The notes below the pieces were generated by a model. The model worked only from the letters and a program-made list of their open reading frames with translations. It searched no databases and was not told the DNA's origin. Source: Salinigranum halophilum (GTDB taxonomy: Archaea > Halobacteriota > Halobacteria > Halobacteriales > Haloferacaceae). Taken from it: a DNA stretch of 64,000 bases. Positions 13,601 to 44,413 of the stretch are shown piece after piece. Positions within the stretch are counted from its first letter, which is position 1, and each line of letters starts with the position of its first letter. The DNA lies in the NCBI RefSeq assembly GCF_007004735.1, contig NZ_SSNL01000007.1, positions 62,001 to 126,000 on the forward strand, read 5' to 3'. Both the position numbers and the translations under genes were made by a program.

Positions 13601-13623
13601 TTCCACCGGAAACAAAGGGGTTC
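13601..13623 (+). repeat. isolated ORB-like element
   Basis: TTCCACCGGAAACAAAGGGG followed by TTC matches the archaeal Origin Recognition Box pattern (TTCCAnnnGAAACnAAGGGG) seen around orc1 in this window. It lies in the 309-base gap 13379-13687, which otherwise shows only GC-rich sequence and a T6 run at 13658-13663. The T-run sits 28 bases before the helicase start and may act as its TATA or as a terminator for the upstream gene. It is about 11 kb from the origin and has no partner nearby. Confidence 0.7.
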
Positions 13624-20013: not shown

Positions 20014-21591
20014 TCAGGTGAACTTCCGGAGCGTCAGGTTCAGCGTGTCGAGGTCGACGATGGGCGCGAAGCCGACGTCGGGGTCGATGTTGACCGACTT
20101 CTGGAAGGCGGTCTGTGACTGCCAGCAGCCCGAGTTGACGGCCAGAACGTTGTGGTACTTGCCGTATCCCAGCTTGTGGACGTGGCCCGTGTGGAAGACG
20201 TCCGGGACGGTGTCGATGGTGAGGTAGTCCTGCTTCTCGGGAGCGAGACGCATCCGGCCGCCGAACTGCGGGGCGACGTGGCGTTTCTTCAACAGCTGGT
20301 ACATCGCCGTGTGGGGGTTGTCGTAGCTCGCCTTCTCCTCGGGCAGTTCGGCGATGACCTCGTCGAGCGAGACGCCGTGGTACATCAGGACCGAGACGCC
20401 CTCGATGGTCACGGTCGAGGGGTTGCCCGTGATACGAGCGTCGTGAGCGGACATGATCTCCCGGAGGTTCTCGTCGAACGCCGGTTGGGGTTCGGCGAGG
20501 CGGACGGCGTCGTGATTACCCGGAATCATCACGATCTCCATGTCGCCGGGCACCTCCTTGAGGTGTTCTGCGAACTGCTCGTACTGCTCGTAGATGTCGA
20601 TGATGCTCAGTTCCTCGTCCTGGTTCGGGTAGACCCCGACTCCCTCGACCATGTCGCCGGCGATGAGGAGATACTCGACGTGGTCGGCCTCCTCGGTGTG
20701 GAGCCAGTCGGCGAACGCGGACCACGCGTCGGCGACGAACTCCTGGCTGCCGACGTGGACGTCGGAGATGAGCGCGGCCTGGACGTGACGGTCCGCCGTC
20801 GACGGGCGGTAGGTCCGGGGTACGTCGGGGAAGTAGAGGTCGTCGACGAACAGGATGCCGGCGTCGTCCGCGAGCGTTCCCGACACCGCGATACACTCGT
20901 CCTTGAGCAGTTCCTCGACCGAGGCGGCGATGTCCTTGTCTTTCATCACGAGACACGGGAAGACGCCGGTCGTGTCCTCGAGTTCGACGAGCCAGTGACC
21001 CGACGCCGTCGAGCGAATGTCGTTGACGAGGCCGATCATCTCCGCGTCGCTCCGCCCCGGCATGTCCTGAATCGCCGTCGCCGGGCGGTGGTTGACCCGG
21101 CCGCGCAACTGCTTCGAGAGCGTCTCGTAGCGGTCTCTGAAGATGGCGACGAAGTCGTCGTAGTCGCCGGTTCCGGTCGACTGTCCCGTGATGTCGCCGT
21201 CGATGCTCACGACGCGCTGTGAGGGGTCCCGGTCTCGTTGCCGAGTCGACCCCTTCGTTTCGACTGGAGTACTACTCGAAGAACCCGGTGGAGTGTCTGA
21301 TTCTCCACCCGAAACAGAGGGGTGTGAGACGGGCGGCTCGGCCGCGTCTTCGGCGGGCGCGTCGGAGACGACACCAGGTGGGTCGGGGATGGGGGCCGTC
21401 TCCGCGTCCAGGACGGTCCGGACGTGTGCTGTCGTGATCCGCAGGGCACCGTCCGGTGCGTGCTCGACGACACGGTCGAGCGTCCCGGCGGTGTCGTCGG
21501 CACTCGCGATGAGGGTGACCGCCTCCCGTTCGGCGTTGTACCCGTGTCGGGCGAGTTCTCGGACGATGCGCGTCGTCGTCTCCAGCGGCAC
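20014..21591 (-). CDS. polD1: DNA polymerase D small subunit DP1 (3'-5' exonuclease)
   Basis: DP1 is the proofreading subunit of the archaeal replicative polymerase PolD. The 525-residue protein has a short N-terminal helical domain (residues 1-60) and a Ser/Thr/Pro-rich acidic linker (about 75-130). An OB fold follows, then the calcineurin-like nuclease with motifs ISDVHVGSQEF, LLIAGDMVEGVG, MIPGNHDAVR and VFHTGHVHKLG. The GTG at 21591 gives the family N-terminus (PLETTTRIVRELARHGYNAE). It is divergent from sec11 and near orc1, as in other haloarchaeal origins. The linker codons contain two ORB elements. The large subunit is not in the window. Confidence 0.96.
   Translation of the reverse strand: MPLETTTRIVRELARHGYNAEREAVTLIASADDTAGTLDRVVEHAPDGALRITTAHVRTVLDAETAPIPDPPGVVSDAPAEDAAEPPVSHPSVSGGESDTPPGSSSSTPVETKGSTRQRDRDPSQRVVSIDGDITGQSTGTGDYDDFVAIFRDRYETLSKQLRGRVNHRPATAIQDMPGRSDAEMIGLVNDIRSTASGHWLVELEDTTGVFPCLVMKDKDIAASVEELLKDECIAVSGTLADDAGILFVDDLYFPDVPRTYRPSTADRHVQAALISDVHVGSQEFVADAWSAFADWLHTEEADHVEYLLIAGDMVEGVGVYPNQDEELSIIDIYEQYEQFAEHLKEVPGDMEIVMIPGNHDAVRLAEPQPAFDENLREIMSAHDARITGNPSTVTIEGVSVLMYHGVSLDEVIAELPEEKASYDNPHTAMYQLLKKRHVAPQFGGRMRLAPEKQDYLTIDTVPDVFHTGHVHKLGYGKYHNVLAVNSGCWQSQTAFQKSVNIDPDVGFAPIVDLDTLNLTLRKFT
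21248..21271 (-). repeat. ORB inside the polD1 linker codons
   Basis: On the minus strand the core is CTCCAGTCGAAACGAAGGGG followed by TC, a very good ORB. It lies inside the polD1 coding region, where it encodes part of a low-complexity Ser/Thr linker, and forms a divergent pair with the element at 21301. Confidence 0.85.
21301..21325 (+). repeat. second ORB inside the polD1 linker codons
   Basis: CTCCACCCGAAACAGAGGGG followed by TG matches the shorter haloarchaeal ORB form (CTCCACnnGAAACnGAGGGGT). It points away from the ORB at 21248-21271, with about 30 bases between the pair, and is also within polD1 coding sequence. Confidence 0.82.
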
Positions 21592-21699: not shown

Positions 21700-22695
21700 A
21701 TGACCGCTGATGAGGGCCGCCGGTCCTCGCAGGACGACGAGCGTCCGGTGGACGACGCGGTCTCCACGAGTCCCTCCACCTCGTCTGCCGAGCAAGCCAG
21801 CGGCGAGTCAGCGACGGCCGACGAGCACAGCGGACAGGATACCCTTAGAGCCGACACCGAAGCGCCGCACGACCGTCGGGCACCGGACCCGGTTCCCGGC
21901 CGGGAGACTGACGAGTCGTTCGCCCGCCGCCTGTGGACTGCGCGGTCCGGGCCGCTCTTCTTCCTGCGCGAAGTGGGGACGAGCATCGGTGCCGTCGTCC
22001 TCGTCGGCCTGGTCCTGTTCGGTGTCAGCGGCGTGTGGCCGCCGATGGTCGCCGTCGAGTCCGGGAGTATGGAGCCGCATATGCACAAGGGCGACCTCGT
22101 GTTCATCACCGAACCCGGACGGTACGCGCCCGACTCGGCGTACGACTCGACCGGCGTCGTGACCGCAGAGACCGGTTCAGACGCCGGCTACCGGACGTTC
22201 GGCGGGCCAGGCTCGGTCGTCGTCTACGACGACCCGGGACGGGGCGGCCCCCCAATCATCCACCGCGCGGAGTTCTACGTTCAGGAGGGCGAGAACTGGT
22301 ACGACCGGGCCGACCCCGAGTTCATCTCCGCCGACAGCTGTGACGACCTCCGCAACTGCCCCGCACCGCACGCCGGCTTCATTACCAAGGGCGACGCGAA
22401 CGGCCGGTACGACCAGGTCTCGGGCATCGCCGAACCCGTGAGGCCGTCGTGGATTACGGGCATCGCGCGGCTCCGGATTCCCTACCTCGGGTGGGTCCGA
22501 CTGGGACTCTCCGACATCGTCCAGACGGGGGCGTACGCGGTGTTCTCCGCCGATACCTCGGCGGTCGGACCCGACGTGAGCCGGCAACTGACGACTGGCG
22601 AGTGGTCGGCACCACCGCGCGAGTCGTCCGCAGGGACCCACGCGAGGAACGAGACGTGGGTCGGCGTGATTCCCGTGGGCCACGAGCGGGCGTGA
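21700..22695 (+). CDS. sec11: signal peptidase I (archaeal Sec11 type)
   Basis: Membrane serine protease that removes signal peptides after Sec or Tat export. The 331-residue protein has a long acidic cytoplasmic extension (about residues 1-80) and a membrane helix (about 93-112). The nucleophile is in VAVESGSMEPHMHKGDLVFI (Ser123), followed by IIHRAEF and the C-terminal FITKGDANGRYDQ with the catalytic Asp of archaeal/eukaryotic-type enzymes. The ATG at 21700 has AGAGAGGTG just upstream. It sits between polD1 and orc1, a conserved haloarchaeal origin neighbourhood, and converges on orc1. Confidence 0.93.
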   Translation: MTADEGRRSSQDDERPVDDAVSTSPSTSSAEQASGESATADEHSGQDTLRADTEAPHDRRAPDPVPGRETDESFARRLWTARSGPLFFLREVGTSIGAVVLVGLVLFGVSGVWPPMVAVESGSMEPHMHKGDLVFITEPGRYAPDSAYDSTGVVTAETGSDAGYRTFGGPGSVVVYDDPGRGGPPIIHRAEFYVQEGENWYDRADPEFISADSCDDLRNCPAPHAGFITKGDANGRYDQVSGIAEPVRPSWITGIARLRIPYLGWVRLGLSDIVQTGAYAVFSADTSAVGPDVSRQLTTGEWSAPPRESSAGTHARNETWVGVIPVGHERA

Positions 22696-22842: not shown

Positions 22843-24423
22843 TCAGTTGTCGAATCGAGCCTGAACGAACGGCTGAGCGTTCTCGATGTCGCTCAGTCGG
22901 GAGTCGGAGAGCAAGACGGCCTCGGTCTCGTCGATGGGGACCGAGATGGAGATCTCCTTCGTGCGGCCGTATCGGCCCTTGGAGACGACGACGGCGTTAG
23001 CGATGCCGAGCATGTCGAGTTCGGAGATGAGGTCGGTGACGCGCCGCTGAGTCAGGATGTCGGCGTCGATCTCCTCACAGAGCCGCTTGTAGATGTTGAA
23101 CACCTCGCCGGTGTTGATGTTTCGGACGCCGTTCTTCTCGAGGAGGATGGTCGCGAAGAGGACGATCTTCGACTGGGTCGGGAGCGTCCGGACGACCTCG
23201 ACGACGCGGTCGAGTTCGATCTTGTCCTGCGCCTGTCGGACGTGTCGTTCCTCGACCGTGTCGGCCTGTCCGCGTTCGGCGAGTTCGCCGGCCGTCCGGA
23301 GCAGGTCGAGCGCCCGTCGAGCGTCGCCGTGTTCCTGCGCGGCGAACGCGGCACAGAGGGGGATGACGTCGTCGGTCAACGCGCCAGATTTGAACGCCAC
23401 GTCGGCGCGGTGCTGGAGGATGTCTCTCAGTTGTGTGGCGTCGTAGGGCGGGAAGACGATCTCCTCTTCACCCAGCGAGGACTTCACGCGCGGGTCGAGA
23501 AAGTCGGTGAACTTCAGGTCGTTCGAGATACCCATGATGGAGATGCGAGAGTTGGTGAGCTCGGAGTTCATCCGCGAGAGGTTGTACAGGGTGTCGTCAC
23601 CGCTCTTTTCGACGAGCTTGTCGATCTCGTCGAGCATGATGACGACGACCCGTTCGTGGTAGTCGACGGCGTCGAAGAACGTCGAGTACACCCTGTCGGT
23701 GGGCCACCCGGTCATGGGAACCGTCTCCATCTCCTCGCGGTCGGCTTCGAGGCTCGCGAGACGCGCTTCGAGGGCGTCGAGCGACTCGAACTCCGTCCCT
23801 GCGAGCGCGTCGGCGTCCTCGGCCGCGCGCGTCTGCAGTTCGCGAAGGCGGTCGAGTCGCCCCTCGATGACGGCCTCGTTCTTCTCGATGAACTTGTTGG
23901 CGAGCTGGGCGAGGACCCGGTACTGAGTATCGGTCACCTCGCAGTTGATGTACTCGACCTCACAGGGGACGTCGTACTTCTGCGAGGTCGACTCCAGCTC
24001 CTGGGAGACGTACTTCGCGCTGGCCGTCTTCCCGGTTCCGGTCTTCCCGTAGATGAGGATGTTCGACGGCGTCTCGCCGCGGAGTGCGGAGACGAGGATG
24101 GTCGCCATCTGATTGATCTGTTCGGTTCGGTGGGGCAGTTCGTGTGGCGTGTACGACGGCCGAAGGACCTCCTTGTTCTCGAAGATGGGCTCGCCCGAGA
24201 GCAGGTCGTCGAACAGTCCCGTGCTCTCGGTCGTCTCTTCGAGGACGACCTCGTCGAAGTCCAGCCCGGCCGACGGCTGGGAGGCCGACTGGTCCGTGTC
24301 GGTCAGGTCGTCGACCGAACCCGGAATGGTCTCGTCGGCGTCGTCGACGGCTCGGTCACCTTCGGTTCTGTCTCGTTGGGCATGGTCACCCACACCGCCT
24401 GTGTCATCCTCGTGTTCACCCAT
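22843..24423 (-). CDS. orc1: origin recognition protein Orc1/Cdc6
   Basis: Initiator AAA+ ATPase that binds ORBs, melts the origin and recruits MCM. The 526-residue protein has an acidic N-terminal extension of about 80 residues, then Walker A YGKTGTGKTAS (about 125-135), Walker B VVIMLDEIDKL, sensor 1 IMGISNDLKF, sensor 2 GDARRALDLLRTAGE and a C-terminal winged helix (QRRVTDLISELDMLG). An Asp/Glu/Ala/Leu-rich insertion (about residues 185-220) lies between Walker A and B. An ORB begins seven bases upstream of the ATG, which suggests self-regulation. It reads away from the origin at 24.4-25.6 kb, the usual arrangement of the main haloarchaeal origin. Confidence 0.97.
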   Translation of the reverse strand: MGEHEDDTGGVGDHAQRDRTEGDRAVDDADETIPGSVDDLTDTDQSASQPSAGLDFDEVVLEETTESTGLFDDLLSGEPIFENKEVLRPSYTPHELPHRTEQINQMATILVSALRGETPSNILIYGKTGTGKTASAKYVSQELESTSQKYDVPCEVEYINCEVTDTQYRVLAQLANKFIEKNEAVIEGRLDRLRELQTRAAEDADALAGTEFESLDALEARLASLEADREEMETVPMTGWPTDRVYSTFFDAVDYHERVVVIMLDEIDKLVEKSGDDTLYNLSRMNSELTNSRISIMGISNDLKFTDFLDPRVKSSLGEEEIVFPPYDATQLRDILQHRADVAFKSGALTDDVIPLCAAFAAQEHGDARRALDLLRTAGELAERGQADTVEERHVRQAQDKIELDRVVEVVRTLPTQSKIVLFATILLEKNGVRNINTGEVFNIYKRLCEEIDADILTQRRVTDLISELDMLGIANAVVVSKGRYGRTKEISISVPIDETEAVLLSDSRLSDIENAQPFVQARFDN

Positions 24424-24429
24424 GTGCGT

Positions 24430-24453
24430 AACCCCACCGTTTCAACTGGAGAA
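24430..24453 (-). repeat. ORB abutting the orc1 start
   Basis: On the minus strand CTCCAGTTGAAACGGTGGGG with TT after it matches the ORB but has GGTGGGG in place of GAAGGGG. It ends seven bases before the orc1 ATG, overlapping the expected promoter, so bound Orc1 could block or tune its own transcription. Confidence 0.75.
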
Positions 24454-24915: not shown

Positions 24916-24945
24916 AACCCCCCCACCCCTTCGTTTCAACTGGAA
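24916..24945 (-). repeat. oriC ORB with G-string, left copy
   Basis: Minus-strand TTCCAGTTGAAACGAAGGGG is followed by TGGGGGGG. It is identical, through the G-string, to the plus-strand copy at 25121-25148, so the two form a perfect inverted repeat of 28 bases with 175 bases between. This is the classic haloarchaeal origin geometry. Confidence 0.95.
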
Positions 24946-24987
24946 CCGCTCCGAGAGGGGTGGGGGGGGAGAAGGGGGCTACTAGGA

Positions 24988-25078
24988 CGAAAAGGATTAA
25001 GTCAAACACATTCAAACTGAGTCCGTACTGCAGTAGCAATACATATTTTCGACCGGTTTATCTAGGTATCTAGTGAGT
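24988..25078. other. AT-rich DNA unwinding element
   Basis: Between the inverted ORBs lies a stretch clearly richer in A and T than anything around it, including AAAAGGATTAAGTCAAACA and AATACATATTTTCGACCGG and GTTTATCTAGGTATCTAG. Its position between two convergent-facing initiator sites fits the duplex unwinding element, where replication would start. The assignment rests on composition and position. Confidence 0.85.
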
Positions 25079-25120
25079 TCGGTCGATCCTCGGCTGTGGG
25101 CCGCCCCGTCTTCAGGGACG

Positions 25121-25148
25121 TTCCAGTTGAAACGAAGGGGTGGGGGGG
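25121..25148 (+). repeat. oriC ORB with G-string, right copy
   Basis: TTCCAGTTGAAACGAAGGGG followed by TGGGGGGG, identical to the left copy in the opposite orientation. It lies about 40 bases to the right of the AT-rich element. Confidence 0.95.
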
Positions 25149-27430: not shown

Positions 27431-27454
27431 AACCCCTTTGCTTCGACTGGAACC
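27431..27454 (-). repeat. ORB downstream of oapC, left copy
   Basis: Minus-strand TTCCAGTCGAAGCAAAGGGG followed by TTG. It lies in the 283-base gap 27391-27673 and pairs divergently with the element at 27546. Confidence 0.8.
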
Positions 27455-27545
27455 TCGCGGACGCCGACGCTGTCGTCGTCCCGACGCCGTTCTCTCGCTC
27501 GACCGCGCTCTCGAACCACGAAACGCTCCTCGTCGTGCGTCCGCG

Positions 27546-27565
27546 CTCCACCGGAAACGGGGGCC
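27546..27565 (+). repeat. ORB downstream of oapC, right copy
   Basis: CTCCACCGGAAACGGGGGCC resembles the ORB core but has CGGGGG instead of CAAAGGGG, so the 3' part is weaker. It sits about 90 bases from the minus-strand copy in the same intergenic gap. Confidence 0.65.
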
Positions 27566-27641
27566 TCCCGGGTCGTGATCGCGTGGCGTGGCAGCCTGTC
27601 GATTGCGAGCGGGCAGGGTGCAGTCGTAGCCGGAATTGAAG

Positions 27642-31759: not shown

Positions 31760-31781
31760 ACCCCTTCGTTTCGACTGGAAC
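31760..31781 (-). repeat. ORB-like element in the ABC operon spacer
   Basis: Minus-strand TTCCAGTCGAAACGAAGGGG with TC after it, a near-perfect ORB. It sits in the 358-base gap 31611-31968 between permease and ATPase genes, about 6.7 kb from the unwinding element. It has no nearby partner. Confidence 0.85.
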
Positions 31782-44224: not shown

Positions 44225-44246
44225 CCCCCCCCGTTTCAACTGGAAC
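44225..44246 (-). repeat. ORB-like element, cluster member 1
   Basis: Minus-strand TTCCAGTTGAAACGGGGGGG. The 5' two-thirds match the origin ORBs at 24916 and 25121 exactly; the AAGGGGT end is replaced by a pure G-run. It lies in the 213-base gap 44203-44415, about 19 kb from the unwinding element. Confidence 0.75.
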
Positions 44247-44270
44247 CTCCTCTCACCGTTCGCCCCGCAG

Positions 44271-44294
44271 AACCCGTTCGCTTCCACTGGAACT
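44271..44294 (-). repeat. degenerate ORB-like element, cluster member 2
   Basis: Minus-strand TTCCAGTGGAAGCGAACGGG with TT. It has GAAGC and GAACGGGT in place of GAAAC and GAAGGGGT, so it is weaker, but is in the same orientation as member 1, 24 bases away. Confidence 0.55.
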
Positions 44295-44390
44295 CGTTCC
44301 CACGACCCGCGACCACGTTCACCATCTGGTCGCAGTACGTCGGTTCTTCCCGTACCAGTCGCCGCTCGCGAGCTTCGTCCGCGGGCGAAC

Positions 44391-44413
44391 GCTCCACCTG
44401 AAACGAAGGGGGC
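44391..44413 (+). repeat. ORB-like element, cluster member 3
   Basis: CTCCACCTGAAACGAAGGGG followed by GCG. It is in plus orientation, 97 bases right of member 2, and nearly touches the stop codon of the gene at 44416. The DNA between is not AT-rich, unlike at the origin. Confidence 0.75.

Follow-up and report, generated by a model that had tools for sequence, protein, structure and literature searches.

In Haloarcula hispanica, oriC2D, downstream of cdc6E, is an ORB-rich, intergenic negative control region of oriC2, with 11 ORBs that serve Cdc6E (PMC3936714). Bacteria, too, have initiator sites away from the origin through which initiation is modulated: the DnaA-box clusters in Bacillus subtilis and datA in E. 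coli (PMC5295017). In Sulfolobus, the Orc1-family protein Orc1-2 is described as a transcription regulator (PMC9738581). Deletion of cdc6A in H. hispanica was very difficult, while that of oriC1 was not, and the authors proposed a vital role for Cdc6A outside oriC1, possibly a transcriptional one. H. volcanii without oriC1 and orc1 has lower ploidy (PMC7776575). A published haloarchaeal survey was confined to the intergenic regions that adjoin orc/cdc6 genes (PMC3528665), so an ORB inside polD1 would lie beyond its scope; no earlier report of an ORB pair in polD1 was found in the open-licence literature, although an older one may exist.

An ORB Pair Inside the polD1 Coding Sequence

The window (the whole 64,000-nucleotide stretch of Salinigranum halophilum DNA analysed here) contains polD1 (20014-21591, minus strand, GTG start), which encodes the DP1 subunit of DNA polymerase D. 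Its product matches the NCBIfam equivalog "DNA-directed DNA polymerase II small subunit" with 962.8 bits, and the best named match of this DP1 is from Salinigranum salinum (80%). Two ORBs lie within the codons of the variable DP1 linker, 270-350 nt into the gene. Site 1 (21249-21269, minus strand; core TCCAGTCGAAACGAAGGGGT) is read on the coding strand and encodes (T)PVETKG(S); site 2 (21303-21323, plus strand; core TCCACCCGAAACAGAGGGGT) is read on the opposite strand, and its complement encodes HPSVSGG. Each site matches 20/21 positions of the longer consensus and 20/20 of the core, and when scored as oriC1-type ORBs (core TCCASNNGAARCRRAGGGGT plus the G-string) both reach 20/20. Their base frequencies are near those of oriC1 ORBs, and their G-strings face outward as in oriC1 (24925- / 25121+). 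The original observation of a divergent pair of strong ORBs within polD1 codons is confirmed; the gap, given there as 30 bases, measures 33 nt (spacer 21270-21302).

The putative binder of the pair, an orc1 of the Cdc6A type, is encoded nearby (22843-24423, minus strand). Eight bases upstream of its start codon is a further ORB (24431-24451, minus strand), likely autoregulatory; 59 of 86 genomes have a comparable ORB close to where orc1 begins, which suggests that Orc1 regulates its own gene. Beyond it is oriC1 (24925-25141), where inverted ORBs (24925-24945, minus; 25121-25141, plus) with the G-string extension flank an AT-rich element. Divergent from polD1 lies sppA (21700-22695, plus strand), a signal-peptidase-like gene whose match to TIGR02228 falls under the cut-off.

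ORBs are rare and clustered in this genome. Only 14 sites with at most one mismatch occur in its 4.2 Mb, 12 of them within 52 kb around oriC1, and a reversed control pattern gave no match genome-wide. For the 83 genomes whose fetched 20 kb include orc1, a genome-wide count gave 351 perfect ORBs. Of these, 245 fall inside the 20 kb: the oriC1 region accounts for 172, the polD1 linker for 47 and other places for 26; stray ORBs other than the polD1 pair were mostly scattered. Past oriC1, the window holds intergenic ORBs as an outward pair (27432-/27546+; 27432-27566) and a single perfect site (31760-31780), which belong to a cloud of ORBs that this genome carries up to about 30 kb from oriC1. Two further groups lie upstream of repair genes: a perfect ORB (13601-13621) that precedes a Rad3/XPD-like helicase gene by about 70-90 bases, and three intergenic ORB-like sites (44225-44412) upstream of uvrB. 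Many genomes of one family, f17, carry a minus-strand ORB 40-110 bases beyond the polD1 stop (L084, L091, L105, L115, L124).

Conservation of the Pair in the Order

polD1 was detected in 115 of 117 genomes of the order; 100 regions were fetched and 99 analysed. Across these 99 loci, from 14 families, 63 have both sites; only site 1 is present in 19 and only site 2 in 9, while 8 have neither. Two Haloarcula relatives carry pairs that score 20/20 and 19/20, and the copies in Haloferax are weaker. Relatives without ORB bases at this place in the linker had been named beforehand as evidence against the idea, and the survey turned out otherwise, with at least one site kept in 91 of the 99. Single-site genomes hold the remaining site at high score. 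Because 28 genomes have one site and 8 have lost both, the pair must be dispensable in some lineages. Both ORBs are gone from the polD1 linker in L110 (G060), L113 (G064), L141 (G009) and L143 (G025), and in one locus that could not be aligned automatically (L109, G006) polD1 has a single weak site, scoring 18/20, at its N-terminal end (L262).

The spacing is held more tightly than its surroundings. When the best site on each strand was picked without regard to the other, and one or both scored at least 18, the pitch in 72 sequences was 58 nt in 57 and 55 nt in 15, in one reading frame; larger pitches of 70, 73 and 76 occur in Halobellus, Halogranum and Halorubellus. Among selected pairs, the flanking segments vary from 41 to 127 residues before and from 16 to 79 residues after, and the two sites are constantly 18-19 codons apart, although the unselected pitch counts are the fairer test since the flank-length set was chosen for near-standard spacing. 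The spacer itself keeps its length and varies in sequence.

Outside the order's families, 19 polD1 loci were examined that belong to other parts of the phylum at family level, and none had an ORB pair in the linker; a class-level search for polD1 yielded no other order. A candidate in Methanomicrobiales-like outgroups, TCCAGTGGAAATARTGGGGT, which encodes SPVEIxGS in a gene adjoining polD1 (TYW1-like, judged by eye), was discarded as a protein mimic of the ORB without a partner site.

Selection Acting on the DNA Itself

The claim that ORB selection shaped the linker codons is backed by several comparisons in which the amino acids are held constant. Under resampling of synonymous codons with fixed amino acids, scores as high as those observed came up with p = 0.0015 for site 1 and p = 0.0005, the floor of the procedure, for site 2. 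Per gene, synonymous shuffling produced 0.027 sites scoring at least 18/20 as against 1.39 observed, and 980 synonymous shuffles gave no 20/20 site as against 0.64 per gene observed. The per-genome p-values are not independent, as the genomes are related; what carries the argument is how large the effect is and how many families share it. Chance origin of the pair is rejected on the strength of the shuffles together with the order-wide conservation.

The alignment of polD1 that had been suggested as a check shows ORB bases held while amino acids change. Across 57 aligned pairs, third codon positions at which the ORB demands a base are fixed (2.0 bits at k10, 16, 61 and 67); at k13, where the ORB is degenerate, the third position carries 0.38 bits, and in the flanks and spacer 0.01-0.45. 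The codon preceding site 1 may specify Ser, Ala, Thr, Val, Pro, Asp or Phe and ends in T in all listed cases (59 pairs). Within site 1, CCA accounts for 53 of 53 Pro codons (background 9%), GCA for 6 of 6 Ala codons at that place, and GAA for 59 of 59 Glu codons (background 30%). In site 2, Val is encoded by GTT in 47 of 47 (background 9%), its replacements Ala, Thr and Gly likewise end in T, and the Gly codon is GGA in 49 of 49 (background 11%). Where the protein does alternate, at Val/Pro in site 1 (GTY or CCY) and Thr/Gly in site 2, it mirrors the alternations of non-coding oriC1 ORBs. Selection at the DNA level for an initiator-type site within the gene of the replicative polymerase is thus strongly supported, and a protein motif as the cause of the ORB likeness is rejected on the third-position and codon-swap evidence.

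The Pair Stays With polD1 When the Origin Is Elsewhere

About 10-40 kb separate orc1 from polD1 in several lineages that still have the polD1 ORBs. In one genus (g2, Halorubrum-like) and apparently in another (g33), polD1 has lost its sppA neighbour and retained the ORBs, so sppA is not required for the pair; in three of the Halorubrum-like genomes sppA still adjoins orc1.

The widest separation is found in a further genus (g43, family f7), in which oriC1 is split from orc1 and polD1 (L263, L252, L264 = G094; L270, L275, L276). An oriC1-like element there has inverted ORBs with the extension around an AT-rich stretch of 294-298 bp, and no orc1 homologue was detected in the fetched stretch around it; the detached element is probably still one for Orc1, to judge from its sequence. 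It lies 152 kb (G100), 172 kb (G196), 186 kb (G194) and 192 kb (G193) from polD1, and 1.54 Mb in G094. The polD1 pair is present in this genus at 18-20/20, one site in G197 scoring 17, and fourfold sites of polD1 differ by 35-43% between its main lineages. The ORB upstream of orc1 stayed with orc1 in the three genomes whose orc1 was covered (G100, G195, G094). The genus is a natural test bed for the linkage of origin and initiator. The sites are tied to their gene independently of the origin, as expected for an Orc1-regulated gene, which fits the earlier suggestion that they couple the replicative polymerase gene to the initiator: they follow polD1, not proximity to oriC1.

Possible Roles of the Pair

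We give a probability of about 0.5 to the reading that the pair is a dedicated, non-origin docking module, putatively for Orc1, that controls polD1 and is overlaid on the linker codons. Two Orc1 molecules would occupy the inverted ORBs, at a distance of about 58 bp from each other and some hundreds of bases into the transcribed polD1 unit, and would lower polD1 transcription as a roadblock or by local repression. DP1 output would thereby track the amount or the nucleotide state of free Orc1, and in parallel the ORB at the orc1 start would autoregulate orc1. Orc1 was picked as the presumed binder because the consensus of the sites equals that of oriC1, and polD1 is the likely target because the same-codon location is kept independently of the origin, of orc1 and of the neighbouring gene. 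The binder, the occupancy by two molecules, and the sign and target of the regulation are all deduced from sequence and location, and are put forward as such. Haloarchaea have many Orc paralogues, and the binder could be any of several of them. Against control of polD1, the sites lie 270-350 nt inside the gene, away from the promoter, some lineages do without one or both of them, and most polD1 genes are near oriC1, as would equally be expected if the pair titrated Orc1.

Such titration is the main rival, and we regard it as rather unlikely. The pair would soak up Orc1 and so restrain firing of oriC1, its placement in polD1 being inherited from an ancestral position next to the origin. Precedents exist in oriC2D of H. 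hispanica (PMC3936714) and in the oriC-proximal DnaA-box clusters (PMC5295017), polD1 is usually a few kb from oriC1, where ORBs concentrate, and by its sequence the pair is predicted to bind without firing. Like oriC2D, it provides initiator sites outside the origin and without origin features, but as one pair only, two sites as against the 11 of oriC2D. A sink needs no fixed place, yet the same codons and pitch recur throughout the order and stray ORBs are mostly scattered; and in G060, which has lost the pair, only one further ORB (at most one mismatch) exists beyond those of oriC1. It is improbable, too, that the pair serves oriC1 in cis, by looping or handcuffing with the oriC1 pair or by forming a local origin domain. 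The outward inverted geometry is shared with oriC1 and the usual distance is 3-5 kb, but the pair persists where that distance has grown, to 10-40 kb in several lineages and to between 152 kb and 1.54 Mb in genus g43, in the latter despite the 35-43% divergence of fourfold sites; a part in oriC1 in cis is contradicted by these genomes, where origin and gene are apart.

A secondary or dormant origin within polD1 has next to no probability in our view, even though an inverted pair of oriC1-type ORBs is what such an origin would offer. The halophile G-string extension is present in 4% of polD1 ORBs as against 82% of oriC1 ORBs, so that 96% of the polD1 sites are without it, and mutation of the extension abolishes oriC1 function in H. 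hispanica (PMC3936714). There is no AT-rich unwinding element between the polD1 ORBs, whose spacer is about 35 nt long and averages 63% GC in relatives, as against a mean of 29% GC for the most AT-rich 40 bp of oriC1. Without extension and unwinding element the pair is not an origin, and it looks built for binding rather than firing. It is very improbable, finally, that the DP1 peptide or an mRNA hairpin is what is constrained and the ORB likeness a by-product. DPSVSTG and PVETKGS are conserved, and the sites, being inverted repeats, can fold (mean -34 kcal/mol). However, synonymous bases are fixed while residues drift at the ORB-degenerate places, these degenerate positions coincide with those of non-coding oriC1 ORBs, and a lone remaining site keeps its high score. 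Nor is there overall covariation between the sites at their variable positions (p 0.14); only position 7 (C/T) covaries, which we attribute, without proof, to shared codon or GC preference.

We entertain only tentatively a broader reading, in which Orc1 is a gene regulator as well as the initiator and its conserved core targets are orc1 and polD1, the latter with an operator in coding sequence. In the window's genus, repair genes close to oriC1 may have joined this set (uvrB and the Rad3/XPD-like helicase, both with ORBs upstream). The helicase-upstream ORB (18-20/20) is 89 nt upstream of the gene in three of the four genomes of this genus and close upstream in the fourth; the uvrB-upstream ORB is present in all four and in a few other members of the family; most other members are without it. 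These repair-gene ORBs are lineage-limited and only suggestive. Under the same tentative reading, the wider set would be the counterpart of DnaA regulons and of Sulfolobus Orc1-2.

To our knowledge, the ways in which archaea restrain initiation and match the supply of replicase to it are largely unknown. The order-wide pair points to a possible control link between initiation and copying, so far unreported. It is a concrete, conserved and easily mutated DNA element in which synonymous changes leave the proteins intact, and a candidate for the vital role of Cdc6A/Orc1 suspected outside oriC1. It also offers a clear case of a DNA-binding site, binding here being predicted, that dictates the sequence of a variable protein linker, and it shows that intergenic-only surveys miss initiator sites.

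Comparison With Described Systems

The pair resembles oriC2D in consisting of ORBs beyond the origin, without origin activity, near an orc/cdc6 gene (PMC3936714). Unlike oriC2D, it is made of two oriC1-type ORBs that lie in codons, is found order-wide and moves with its gene. With the haloarchaeal oriC1 it has the core consensus and the outward inverted geometry in common (PMC3936714, PMC3528665), but it lacks the G-string extension and the AT-rich element, and its pitch is 55-58 nt rather than about 180 or more. The B. subtilis clusters and E. coli datA are a parallel as initiator sites away from the origin, but they serve the bacterial DnaA and are not known to take the form of a single pair fixed within polymerase-gene codons (PMC5295017). 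Sulfolobus Orc1-2 offers the parallel of an archaeal Orc1-family protein that controls genes; it is described as a non-initiator that regulates the response to DNA damage (PMC9738581), whereas the polD1 sites carry the initiator's own origin consensus.
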